Source: Falsiroseomonas stagni DSM 19981 (GTDB taxonomy: Bacteria > Pseudomonadota > Alphaproteobacteria > Acetobacterales > Acetobacteraceae). Taken from it: a stretch of 64,000 bases of DNA. Under the pieces are notes generated by a model, which saw only the letters and a list, made by a program, of their open reading frames with translations, did not search any database and was not told the origin of the DNA. The stretch lies in contig NZ_FOSQ01000001.1 of assembly GCF_900114315.1 (NCBI RefSeq), positions 372,001 through 436,000 of the forward strand. The letters are read 5' to 3'. This document shows positions 720-64,000 of this stretch, in pieces. The translations under genes and the position numbers were made by a program. Position 1 is the stretch's first letter, and each line of letters starts with the position of its first letter.

Positions 720-736
720 AAGCAGGCCCTATCGCT

Positions 737-780
737 CCCTCTCCCGCAGGGCGGGAGAGGGTCGGGGTGAGGGTGGGACA
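737..780. repeat. Solo G-rich hairpin repeat between ybaB and recR
   Basis: A perfect 11-bp stem (737-747 with 751-761, loop agg) is followed by a G-rich tail (gtcggggtgagggtggga). Sequence and architecture match the 40-bp inverted repeats that frame the DUF559 gene at 62.2-62.6 kb, so this looks like a solo member of the same family. It lies in the intergenic space within the dnaX-ybaB-recR operon and might act as a transcript-stabilising or attenuating hairpin; that role is inference. Confidence 0.7.
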
Positions 781-60706: not shown

Positions 60707-62122
60707 CTACCGCTTCACCTTGCCCCAGCCCGGATCCTCGACGGTCATGTGCCGCAGGCCGGACCGCTCCAGCATCGCATCCGCCTCCCGCCACGCCGCC
60801 GTCGCGATCTCCGTCGCATCGAGGTGCGGCGTCACGCGGTCGCGCATCAACACCTGGCCGTCCACCACCACATCCATCACGTCATGGCCATTGGCGAAAT
60901 AGACCACGCGCGCGACGGGCATGTTGGCCGGCACCATATGCGGTCCGGTCAAATCCACGGTGATGACATCGGCCTTCTTGCCGACCTCGAGGCTGCCGAT
61001 CTCCGCATCCAGGCCCATGCCCTTGGCGGCGTCGATCGTCACCATCTCCAGCGCCTTGCCGGGCGGGATCATCGTCTCGTCCCGGAAGTGGCGCTGGTGG
61101 TAGCGGATGCACTGGAACATGTGGCGGAACATGTCGCCGCTGCGGTCGGGCGCGGTGGCGTCAGACCCGATCATCACCGTCACGCCATCCTGCATCATCC
61201 GCGGCGCCGGGCAGTAGCCCCGCACGGCCGCGATGGCGGAGGGGTTGTGCACGACGGAGGCACCGGTCCGCACCAGCGTCTCGATATCCGCATCGGTCAG
61301 GTCGGTGCAGTGGCTGTGCCAGCTGTCGGGGCCCATCAGGCCGAACATGCGGTCCGCCATCTCGATGCTGCCCTGGCGATGGCCATCCTGGTGGAACCAG
61401 GCGCCATGCTTCTTGCCGATATCGCGCACCAGCCGCCCCTGGCGCTCGATCTCGCGCACCTTGGCCGGATCGTGCTTCGCTTCCCGGTACACCGGCATCA
61501 GCGTCGCCAGCTTCACGCGGCCCCTGTTGTGCCAGGCTTCCAGCGCCGCGGTGATGGTCTCCAGCTGCTGCTCGAAGGAGACGGGGCGTTCGACGCCATC
61601 CGGCCCCACATAGGGCCGCGGGAAGGGCGGCCGCGTCGGCCCCACCACCAGGATGCTGCGGATGCCGACGGCTTCCGTCGCCGTCGCATGGGCATCGGCG
61701 AAGGCGGGATCATCGACGCGCCCGATGCTGTCGCCGCCGCCCAGCAGCGAGACGCCCGTGGTCACGCCGAAGCGCAGCCTTTCATGCGCCGCCAGCATCG
61801 CCTCCGCCTTCCAGAAGGAGGGGGGGGAGGCGAGGGTGTAGATGATCCGGCACGCCTCCGACCAGGCGGCGCCGTCATTGTTGCCCATGGTCTTGACCAG
61901 GCCATGCCCCGCATGGGCGTGGCCATCGATGAGCCCGGGCAGGATCGCGCGGCCCTTGGCCTCGATCACCGTCGTCGCATTGCCATGCGCCGCGACGACC
62001 TCGGCCGTCGGCCCGACAGCCACGATGCGGCCATCCTTGATGGCGACGGCGCCGTCATCGATGACGCGGCGCGTCGTGTCCATGGTGATGAGGACACCGC
62101 CGCGGATGAGAAGATCGGTCAT
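60707..62122 (-). CDS. Amidohydrolase-superfamily metal enzyme
   Basis: 471 residues, with an N-terminal beta-sandwich (LLIRGGVLITMDTTRRVIDD), metal-binding HxH in PGLIDGHAHAGHGLVKT, mid-chain His in WHSHCTDLTDADI and terminal Asp in MIGSDATAPDRSG. Resembles the AtzA/TrzN/SAH-deaminase branch, so deamination of a heterocycle is plausible but the substrate is unknown. Start at the ATG at 62122, about 50 bp from the DUF559 cassette. Confidence 0.87.
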   Translation of the reverse strand: MTDLLIRGGVLITMDTTRRVIDDGAVAIKDGRIVAVGPTAEVVAAHGNATTVIEAKGRAILPGLIDGHAHAGHGLVKTMGNNDGAAWSEACRIIYTLASPPSFWKAEAMLAAHERLRFGVTTGVSLLGGGDSIGRVDDPAFADAHATATEAVGIRSILVVGPTRPPFPRPYVGPDGVERPVSFEQQLETITAALEAWHNRGRVKLATLMPVYREAKHDPAKVREIERQGRLVRDIGKKHGAWFHQDGHRQGSIEMADRMFGLMGPDSWHSHCTDLTDADIETLVRTGASVVHNPSAIAAVRGYCPAPRMMQDGVTVMIGSDATAPDRSGDMFRHMFQCIRYHQRHFRDETMIPPGKALEMVTIDAAKGMGLDAEIGSLEVGKKADVITVDLTGPHMVPANMPVARVVYFANGHDVMDVVVDGQVLMRDRVTPHLDATEIATAAWREADAMLERSGLRHMTVEDPGWGKVKR

Positions 62123-62170
62123 GGAGTCTCCTGGTCAGTCATTCGTTCGTTCACTCCGGCGCGCTCTTGC

Positions 62171-62210
62171 TCCCTCCCCCGCGCTTGCGGGGGAGGGCCG
62201 GGGTGGGGGT
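62171..62210 (+). repeat. Left arm of a 40-bp inverted repeat
   Basis: A hairpin (62172-62182 with 62187-62197, loop gctt) is followed by ccggggtgggggt. As a whole it is inverted relative to 62594-62633 with one mismatch in 40. Confidence 0.95.
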
Positions 62211-62224
62211 ATTCCCGGCCCTGT

Positions 62225-62590
62225 TCAGCCGCGCGCCGCCATCATTTCAGCGATCACGCGCCGAATATCGCTGACAACGCCATCGGCATTCGCCAGCACG
62301 TCATTGTTCCAGTACCGCAGCACCCGCCAGCCCTGCGCCGCCATCGCCGCATCACGCGTTGCATCATGCGGGCCACTGTGCTGTCCGCCATCAACCTCGA
62401 TGACGAGCTTCATCGCTGTACAGGCGAAATCCGCGAAGTACGGCGGTATCGGATGCTGCCGCCGGAAGCGCACGCCGAGCGCTTCCTGTTGGAGCAACGC
62501 CCACAGCTTCTGCTCCGCTTCCGTCGCGTCACGACGCAGTCGTCGTGCTGTCGCATGGCGTTCTGGCTCTGCGATTGGTGGATGCAGCAT
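62225..62590 (-). CDS. DUF559 (VSR-like endonuclease fold) protein
   Basis: 121 residues of DUF559. Conserved features are RDATEAEQKLWALLQ, FRRQHPIPPYFADFAC (Asp of a PD-(D/E)xK-like site), LVIEVDGGQH and GWRVLRYWNNDVL. The fold resembles very-short-patch repair endonucleases; activity is inferred. The ATG at 62590 is 4 bp from the right repeat arm, whose G-run (gggggt on the coding strand) would serve as the ribosome site. Confidence 0.88.
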   Translation of the reverse strand: MLHPPIAEPERHATARRLRRDATEAEQKLWALLQQEALGVRFRRQHPIPPYFADFACTAMKLVIEVDGGQHSGPHDATRDAAMAAQGWRVLRYWNNDVLANADGVVSDIRRVIAEMMAARG

Positions 62591-62593
62591 CGG

Positions 62594-62633
62594 ACCCCCA
62601 CCCCGACCCTCCCCCGCAAGCGCGGGGGAGGGA
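62594..62633 (-). repeat. Right arm of the 40-bp inverted repeat
   Basis: The stem is 62607-62617 with 62622-62632, loop aagc, preceded by acccccaccccga. It is the inverted copy of 62171-62210 (39/40). Confidence 0.95.
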
Positions 62634-62645
62634 GTGTCTATCCCC

Positions 62646-64000
62646 TCACTCCACCTTCACCAGCCACAGCCGCAGCCGGTTGTCCGGCGCCTGGCGCAGG
62701 TCGATCCCGCGGCGGGATGCCCAGGCGATGGGCTGCTGGAACAGCGGCACATGCGCGATCTCCGCGCGTTCGATCGCCAGCGCGTCGCGGATGAAGCCAC
62801 GCCGCGCCGTCTCATCCGCCGCTTCCGCCGCGCGCTCCACCAGCGCGTCGAAGGCCGCGTTGGACCAGCGGCCGTAGTTCAGCCCGCCCGTCGTCCGCCC
62901 CGCCGTGCGCAGCACCTCGTTCAGCGTGGAATAGCTGTCCGCCAGCGGCAGCCCGGCATGGCCCAGCAGGTAGATCGAGAAGTCGCGGTTGGCCGTGCGG
63001 CGGGACCAGACCGCGGTCGGCTCGCTCTGCAGCTGCAGCCGTATGCCGACCCGCGCCAGCATGGCGGCGATCGCCTGGCAGGTGCGTTCGTCATTCACGT
63101 AGCGGTCATTCGGGCAGACGATGCCGACGGTGAAGCCCTGCGGATACCCGGCCTCCGCCAGCAGGCGCCGGGCGCCATCGGGGTCGAAGGGCAGGCGGCC
63201 ATTGAGGTCCTGCGGCGCGCCGGTCAGGAAGGGGCTCACCATCATCCCCGCGGGCCAGGCCTTCTCCCGCATCACGGTGCGGACCAGCGCGTTCACATCG
63301 ATGGCGCGGTAGATCGCCTCCCGCACCCGCCGGTCCTTCAGCGGATTGCGGCCGCGCACGTCGGAATAGAGCAGTTCATCCCGCTCATGATCGAAGCCGA
63401 GATAGATGGTCCGCAGCTCCGGCCCCTCGATCACCTGCACGCGGCTGTCCTGCAGCAGGCGCGGGATGTCCTGCAGCGGCACCTCCACATTCGCGTCGAT
63501 GGCGCCTGACAGCAGCGATGCCGTCCGCGTCGCGGCGCTGCGGATCGGCTGGAAGGTGACACGGGTCAGATTATGGACCGGCCGGTCCCACCAGCCGGCA
63601 TGCGGCTCCAGCACCGTGCGCTCATCCGGCCGACGCTCCGTGATCCGGAAGGGCCCCGTGCCATTCGCCACGCGCGTCGCGCCGCTTTCCTGCTGCCCGG
63701 CCAGGTTCGCGGCCTCCGTCGCGTTGTTCGCGCGGCTCCAGCCCTCATCCATGATGAAGAACTGCGTGATGGAGGCCGGCAGGATCGGGAAGGGACGATG
63801 CGTCTCGATCTCGATCACATGGCTGTCGACCTTGCGGACCTCCTTGATCGCGCCCAGCAGCCCGCGCGCCATGGACCCCGGCGAATTCACCCGCGCCCAG
63901 GTGAAGACCACGTCATCCGCGTCGAAGCTTTCCCCGTTGTGGAACACCACGTTGCGGCGAAGGTTGAAGCGCCAGATCGTCGGCGTCGTGCGCTCCCAGC
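62646..64000 (-). CDS. Family-5 ABC solute-binding protein, N-terminus beyond the window
   Basis: Peptide/nickel/opine-type binding protein; about 451 residues are visible and the frame is open to the window edge. Typical stretches are WRFNLRRNVVFHNGESFDAD, DDVVFTWARVNSPGSMARG, NGTGPFRITERRPDERTVLE, KDRRVREAIYRAIDVNALV and FDPDGARRLLAEAGYPQGF. Signal peptide and start are outside. It stops 12 bp from the right repeat arm of the DUF559 cassette. Ligand unknown. Confidence 0.88.
   Translation of the reverse strand, partial: WERTTPTIWRFNLRRNVVFHNGESFDADDVVFTWARVNSPGSMARGLLGAIKEVRKVDSHVIEIETHRPFPILPASITQFFIMDEGWSRANNATEAANLAGQQESGATRVANGTGPFRITERRPDERTVLEPHAGWWDRPVHNLTRVTFQPIRSAATRTASLLSGAIDANVEVPLQDIPRLLQDSRVQVIEGPELRTIYLGFDHERDELLYSDVRGRNPLKDRRVREAIYRAIDVNALVRTVMREKAWPAGMMVSPFLTGAPQDLNGRLPFDPDGARRLLAEAGYPQGFTVGIVCPNDRYVNDERTCQAIAAMLARVGIRLQLQSEPTAVWSRRTANRDFSIYLLGHAGLPLADSYSTLNEVLRTAGRTTGGLNYGRWSNAAFDALVERAAEAADETARRGFIRDALAIERAEIAHVPLFQQPIAWASRRGIDLRQAPDNRLRLWLVKVE

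Follow-up and report, generated by a model that had tools for sequence, protein, structure and literature searches.

Introduction

The closest described counterparts of the locus presented here are the repetitive extragenic palindromic (REP) sequences and REPINs with their REP-associated tyrosine transposase (RAYT or TnpA-REP), together termed REPtrons. As far as the available parts of the respective papers go (PMC3116915, PMC8266576, PMC3733652), these systems comprise short palindromes with an unpaired tag that occur in many copies and in inverted doublets, as well as a small DNA-processing gene which is flanked by the repeat and co-evolves with it. Here, we describe a 64,000-nucleotide stretch of the Falsiroseomonas stagni DSM 19981 genome (in the following, the window), in which a gene of the protein family DUF559 (PF04480) is framed by two inverted hairpin arms. 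REP/RAYT is the known kind of such a system; in our case, enzyme and repeat both belong to other families.

On the side of the repeat, the relevant background is the triplex motif (TM, earlier named PIT), an intrastrand triplex motif that consists of a pyrimidine arm, a purine arm and a purine third strand (Holder et al. 2015, PMC4666352). According to the available part of that paper, E. coli MG1655 holds 23 copies with five inverted pairs, the motif occurs in more than 260 genomes and is linked to genomic instability, and neither a class of flanking genes nor a mobility gene was found for it.

We observe that DUF559 genes and TM repeats are paired in distant bacteria, which suggests that DUF559 is the partner so far lacking for a widespread repeat of unexplained origin. 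In our judgement, DUF559 is probably the dedicated enzyme of the TM repeats, in a REP/RAYT-like system where a Vsr-like nuclease replaces the HUH tyrosine transposase. We found no report of a link between DUF559 and a repeat in the open-access literature; most subscription papers and bioRxiv lie outside this scope, and an earlier report is possible.

Results

The arms resemble triplex motifs

A preliminary description of the locus, made from the letters alone, had noted near-perfect inverted arms around a complete DUF559 gene, at distances of 14 bp and 3 bp, each arm with a hairpin of its own. All of this is borne out. The open reading frame (ORF) matches PF04480 with an E-value of 1.6e-35 (121.7 bits at a gathering cut-off of 20.6), and its borders agree with both distances. 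The arms measure 41 nt each, are complementary at 40 of 41 positions (98%) and enclose a spacer of 383 nt. Folded as DNA, each arm forms an 11-bp stem with a 4-nt loop, with energies of -16.4 and -16.3 kcal/mol (z -3.3 and -4.6), and none of 200 shuffles was equally stable. A chance origin of the arms was rejected by a reversed control pattern in the genome (see below) and by shuffles: a 22-base arm part with up to three mismatches has three matches in the window and none in 100 shuffles. No known RNA was found around the gene (61800-63000) at the Rfam gathering score. Below threshold, both arms resemble the Rfam family Chlorobi-1 (62175-62221 with 23.7 bits and 62587-62629 with 18.9 bits, cut-off 50), which might itself be a TM-like repeat.

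Beyond the preliminary description, we find a mirrored tail, a third copy in the window (Table 1) and tail-out doublets elsewhere in the genome. In both arms the stem is followed by TC or CC and then by GGGGTGGGGGT, and both tails are directed toward the DUF559 gene. Read in reverse, the tail equals the purine arm, where an A of the arm may be faced by A or T; at our own locus (L001; loci and genomes carry L and G numbers where they have to be told apart), arm GGGGGAGGG and mirrored tail GGGGGTGGG match in 9 of 9 positions. To judge from the sequence, a hairpin with a tail that mirrors its purine arm is the architecture of the TM, with the same order of arm, arm and third strand. Whereas the TM has no gene partner in the available part of PMC4666352, the repeat described here is tied to DUF559. 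The REP sequences carry the tag GTAG or CGTC, whereas our repeat has a G-rich third strand and ACCCCCACCCCGA before the stem; the arm sequence does not fit membership in the CGTC or GTAG REPs.

DUF559 genes and triplex motifs are neighbours in several phyla

Species genomes were scanned with only the protein as query, without the repeat, which yielded at least 538 relatives. Among the best 80 of these, 78 loci have sufficient DNA upstream, and in 64 of the 78 a C/T-G/A hairpin lies in the 150 bp preceding the matched start, compared to 5 of 126 neighbouring ORFs of at least 150 aa; the downstream numbers are 24 of 77 loci and 10 of 162 control ORFs. For stricter tests we pooled 144 DUF559 loci, namely the 80 from the scan, 17 from the family (L106-L122, without the weaker L123-L134, most of which are segments of long ORFs), 16 from the genus including our own (one weak match excluded), 30 from the phylum, and E. 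coli ycjD. The strict motif is a hairpin with a third strand mirroring it to at least 0.85, within 200 bp.

In a first version of this test, the motif was found on either side of 91 of 134 evaluable DUF559 genes, as opposed to 5 of 132 controls (upstream 70/141 vs 2/146, downstream 51/137 vs 9/190), and 65 upstream tails point toward the gene and 19 away from it. The downstream arm frequently overlaps the end of the ORF. In the second version, where the downstream flank is measured from the end of the domain, 123 loci are evaluable; for the other 21 the flank is too short or the domain end was not recognised. The motif then stands on at least one side of 97 of the 123 genes and downstream of 83, with the tail toward the gene in 74. 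A near-identical test on control ORFs, covering 200 bp upstream and -120 to +200 at the end and excluding ORFs up to 500 bp from a DUF559 gene, gave the motif in 1 of 101 and on both sides in none of 101. DUF559 genes of relatives therefore do not regularly lack the repeat, a finding that would have spoken against the REP/RAYT-like layout with another enzyme proposed at the outset; this layout is supported.

The motif overlaps the ORF end in 51 of the 123 genes, and proline-rich or GEG-type C-terminal tails are present in 76 (e.g., L036, L058, L070, L093). These tails look like translated TM arms, and the predicted protein ends would then be partly repeat-derived. Loci with a hairpin and a well-mirrored tail occur in Pseudomonadota, Chloroflexota (L065), Omnitrophota (L062, L092, L095), WOR-3 (L047), Sericytochromatia (L061), Thermodesulfobacteriota (L097) and Acidobacteriota (L104).

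Some DUF559 genes have other surroundings. L204 and L209 (both family f2) and L205 have no Y/R hairpin in the 250 bp to each side, and may form a domesticated subgroup like Caulobacter VsrA. The gene at L203 lies between different, longer inverted repeats with an inner palindrome, which are not TM.

Tail, arm and enzyme lineage vary together

The third strand covaries with the purine arm. Starting from 114 loci, 91 have an upstream hairpin and 82 of these a purine arm of at least 6, which form the set used here. A tail-arm match of at least 0.85 is found on the gene side in 65 of the 82 loci and on the far side in 6. The mean match is 0.891, compared to 0.813 (sd 0.008) when tails are swapped between loci, where the largest of 2000 values was 0.843. 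Examples of arm and tail are GGGGGAAGG with GGATGGGGG, GGGAGAGGG with GGGTGAGGG, and GGAGAAGGA with AGGATGAGG. Several of the non-matching loci, read by eye, are extended by a second hairpin that separates the arm from the tail.

In a DUF559 tree of 140 rows, the arm type changes 18 times over the 71 rows whose arm types have at least four members. Free shuffling gives a mean of 40.5 changes (least 34 in 200 shuffles) and shuffling within orders a mean of 33.3 (least 29 in 200). The observed number is far below both; therefore the repeat type tracks the enzyme lineage, with taxonomy only partly controlled; 27 rows without an NCBI rank made up a single stratum.

Gene and repeat occur in the same genomes

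A DUF559 match was called strong at E<1e-15 in the family set and at E<1e-12 in the phylum set, cut-offs which set whole-domain matches apart from partial matches in long ORFs and which were chosen after the tables had been seen. In the family (150 genomes), the pattern GGGRGAGGGNNRGGGTGRGGG is present in 13 of 17 genomes with a strong match and in 20 of 133 without. In the phylum (398 genomes), a wider repeat pattern is present in 63 of the 110 genomes that have a strong match and in 29 of the 288 that have none; at least five copies occur in 39 and 7 of these genomes, respectively. Counted by genus, the repeat is found in 41 of 67 with and 17 of 146 without a strong match, and a reversed control pattern has one to three matches in ten of the 398 genomes. 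Arms without any link to DUF559, the other outcome that would have contradicted the initial idea, are not what these counts indicate. The DUF559 protein of our locus has matches in 2 of 50,697 phage records and in 45 of 72,556 plasmid records.

In the F. stagni genome (6.38 Mb), a 24-base arm part with up to three mismatches has 24 matches, while the reversed control pattern has none. There is one DUF559 match. Y1_Tnp (PF01797), the HUH/Y1 domain of the RAYT enzyme, has no match in this genome and was matched in 5 of 14 genomes as a control; a RAYT as the enzyme of our repeat was therefore rejected. Long open frames of GC-rich DNA mask whether the sites of the copies are intergenic. Some of the copies inspected in context form tail-out inverted doublets of 91 to 100 bp at L005, L006 and L017, which are REPIN-like, and the repeat thereby agrees with the REPs in being a dispersed palindrome that forms some inverted doublets. 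When folded, the doublet at L005 is one long hairpin (-58.6 kcal/mol, z -13). It is spanned by a single match in the three nearest relatives; in the other eleven, the matches listed are separate flank pieces or cover one side only.

Repeats and genes turn over between relatives

Among the 14 congeners in the genus sample, 11 could be aligned at the orthologous site, and the cassette is absent from all 11. The preliminary description had suggested a comparison with close relatives for empty sites; a clean empty site was not found among the 11, as the stretch is too divergent for a definition of the borders. At L158, L160, L161 and L162 the alignment reads as other TM-like elements at the orthologous site, and arm-bearing DUF559 genes are present at different places in congeners. 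In the three nearest relatives (L155-L157; G150, G155, G158), approximately 350 bp of other sequence lie between the genes that flank the cassette here.

In Azospirillum, a DUF559 gene is found at one syntenic place in seven records, beside a tail-out doublet that is interrupted in L256. A 2.7-kb query matches 19 to 39 places on the seven chromids concerned, presumably mostly repeat copies. The interruption is apparently an insertion sequence of the IS110 family within the TM doublet by the Azospirillum argentinense DUF559 gene (L256 1-1070, NZ_CP032322.1; match H100). Some IS110 elements target REPs.

For A. brasilense, two 50-kb stretches from each of three strains were compared, and sites without partner flanks were not counted. 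Among the six comparable repeat sites, one is in a different state in each of the three strains, and another holds a doublet in two of the strains but only approximately 20 nt in Sp7, where no duplication was seen. These sites show the turnover of the repeat, not its mechanism.

E. coli ycjD lies close to a triplex motif

The K-12 gene ycjD (b1289) is annotated as DUF559 (score 1.4e-49). A TM begins approximately 170 bp beyond its stop codon, and across the stop codon lies a hairpin that looks decayed. For a given gene of this length, the probability of having one of the 23 TMs within 250 bp by chance is about 0.4%. Of 5426 E. coli genomes, 3362 contain at least 80% of the ycjD region, which puts a natural comparison at hand; in strain 2017-01-4CC, a deletion of approximately 106 bp at ycjD, seemingly between direct repeats, has left the downstream TM in place. 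The PF04480 profile search gave no match in the E. coli control genome, either by a miss or because that strain has no ycjD. At L190 (~2759-2801), a long non-TM palindrome (CACCTCATTCTGACAA...TTGTCAGAATGAGGTG) is located 5' of ycjD and overlaps its GTG start.

The DUF559 protein has a nuclease-like fold

The DUF559 model matches PD-(D/E)XK folds, in order of closeness a putative nuclease, the domain of the homing endonuclease I-Bth0305I, and Vsr. NGO0050 (PDB 3hrl) is a putative endonuclease-like protein whose entry title gives no function beyond "putative". The catalytic fold of I-Bth0305I (PDB 3r3p), an EDxHD homing endonuclease, is matched by DUF559, at 21% identity. E26, D54, H71 and D76 are invariant in 45 sequences; they may correspond to the active-site motif E-D-x-H-D for which the label EDxHD stands. 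For an EDxHD enzyme an intron or intein would be the expected place, whereas our gene is a stand-alone ORF, with no intron match up to E 1 in an Rfam search of 61800-63000. We know of no recognition of hairpin repeats by I-Bth0305I. With respect to Vsr, the protein stays below the curated cut-offs (PF03852 16.1 vs 27 bits, TIGR00632 28.8 vs 97.85 bits).

Genomic context and coordinates

The neighbours of the DUF559 gene are an amidohydrolase gene on one side and a gene for a family-5 solute-binding protein on the other. All features are listed in Table 1.

Table 1. Positions of the DUF559 gene, its arms and a further repeat copy within the window
Feature	Position	Strand	Remark
DUF559 gene, 121 aa, PD-(D/E)XK / Vsr-like fold	62225..62590	-	
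Upstream arm: stem 62632-62622 / 62617-62607, loop 62621-62618, tail 62604-62594 toward start codon	62594..62634	-	
Downstream arm: stem 62172-62182 / 62187-62197, loop 62183-62186, tail 62200-62210 toward stop codon	62170..62210	+	
G-rich tail of upstream arm, possible ribosome-binding sequence	62594..62604	-	judged from sequence
Third window copy, A-type: arm GGGAGAGGG, tail GGGTGAGGG	733..776	+	no DUF559 match of the F. stagni genome there

Discussion

The assignment of DUF559 to the TM repeats rests on their adjacency across several phyla, the covarying third strand, arm types that track the protein tree, joint occurrence in genomes, REPIN-like doublets, a doublet whose presence differs between strains, and a nuclease fold in which acidic and His residues are invariant. 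If DUF559 is the enzyme of the TM repeats, the following course of events may be envisaged. The protein would bind its own TM when this is folded as a hairpin or triplex and nick or cut it at the end of stem or tail, and host repair would copy TM doublets to new places, which would be homing-like rather than classical transposition. To our knowledge, a lone PD-(D/E)XK domain does not join strands. The arm 5' of the gene may also couple the expression of DUF559 to the repeat. A wider proposal is that bacterial TMs form a second REP class independent of HUH enzymes, in which miniature mobile elements are spread through cut-and-repair copying by a stand-alone Vsr-like DUF559 nuclease (YcjD included) that recognises the hairpin or triplex; this could as well be right as wrong.

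Several observations weigh against an assignment of DUF559 to the TM repeats. Cleavage and binding by DUF559 and movement of the TM are inferred, none having been observed directly. A DUF559 protein of Caulobacter, VsrA, is interpreted as a mismatch-repair enzyme in a 2026 study (PMC12907096), the available part of which makes no link of Vsr or VsrA to a repeat, unlike the situation here. The preliminary description had proposed to count how often arm and gene adjoin in the F. stagni genome; 22 of the 24 copies lie away from a DUF559 gene, and only the other two, the cassette arms, adjoin it. The near-perfect two-armed frame that it describes is not general: of the 123 genes, 97 have the motif on at least one side and only 48 on both, the first strict test showed two tail-inward arms for no more than 21 of 134 genes, and an ungapped inverted repeat beats the best of 20 random same-locus pairs in only 14 of 76 loci (17 of 76 score at least 15). 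A long ungapped inverted repeat was thus rejected as a general feature; what the loci have in common is the single motif, not the near-perfect two-armed frame. As the loci share descent, p-values overstate their independence.

At the level of genomes, the searched pattern is absent from 47 of the 110 phylum genomes with strong DUF559 matches, a count that leaves out other existing arm types. Conversely, at least ten repeats occur together with the lack of a strong match in seven genomes of the phylum set, among them G301 (129 repeats), G460 (97) and G360 (67). Within our own genus (15 genomes), no gene was found in G150 (45 repeats) and G158 (88), and the correlation of gene and repeat numbers is a weak test (Spearman 0.52, p 0.045; presence p 0.059). 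Many repeats without a detected gene would fit a gene that was lost, missed or not needed. Finally, four of the six A. brasilense sites are shared (one with 60 nt of extra spacer in Sp7, one in two strains only), and no target-site duplication was seen.

DUF559 could also be a housekeeping Vsr-like repair nuclease for hairpin or triplex DNA or TG mismatches, which TM-rich genomes keep and which does not spread repeats. A repair enzyme has no need for a lineage-matched substrate beside its own gene, however, and the TM-rich genomes without a detected gene do not agree with such a dependence; we consider this explanation unlikely.

A flanking TM may further serve to regulate or process the DUF559 gene (as a hairpin attenuator, ribosome site, terminator or autoregulatory binding site), with the dispersed copies being of other origin. 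The upstream tail indeed runs toward the start codon, and its G-rich end, 3 bp 5' of the ATG, is a possible ribosome-binding sequence. Hairpins near gene ends can terminate, a role that was presumed by the authors for the 100 hairpin copies counted in Enterobacter sp. 638 (PMC2869309, as far as available). An earlier study cited in the available part of PMC4666352 found neither promoter nor terminator activity in the E. coli motif, and regulation leaves the inverted motif downstream of 83 genes, the genome-level link of gene and copies, and the tail-out doublets unexplained. It is therefore a rather improbable account of the pairing.

A different question is whether the whole arm-gene-arm unit of 465 bp moves as a small transposon-like cassette, instead of an enzyme acting in trans on TM doublets. 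The absence of the unit from all 11 aligned relatives, the armed DUF559 genes elsewhere in congeners, and the motifs on both sides of 48 genes speak for such a unit. Against it stand the constant place of the Azospirillum gene, the lack of a clean empty site or target duplication, and the numbers in the eight genus genomes with DUF559, which have one to four strong gene matches each and 6 to 145 repeats. We regard movement of the entire unit with similar doubt as regulation.

That C/T-rich hairpins are merely common in the GC-rich intergenic DNA or insertion hotspots where DUF559 genes sit is very improbable: a loose hairpin test (128 of 134 DUF559 genes vs 23 of 118 control ORFs) has such a high background, with 17 of 40 ORFs of the window, that we do not rely on it, but the strict tests have a background near zero (1/101; 5/132), and coincidence does not account for the covariation of tail and arm or for the pairing in E. 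coli K-12.

A cognate enzyme of the TM would be testable in E. coli K-12, where ycjD and the 23 reported copies are already present. If DUF559 is indeed this enzyme, a large uncharacterised protein family would gain a role, perhaps as a nuclease that reads the shape of DNA, be it hairpin or triplex.
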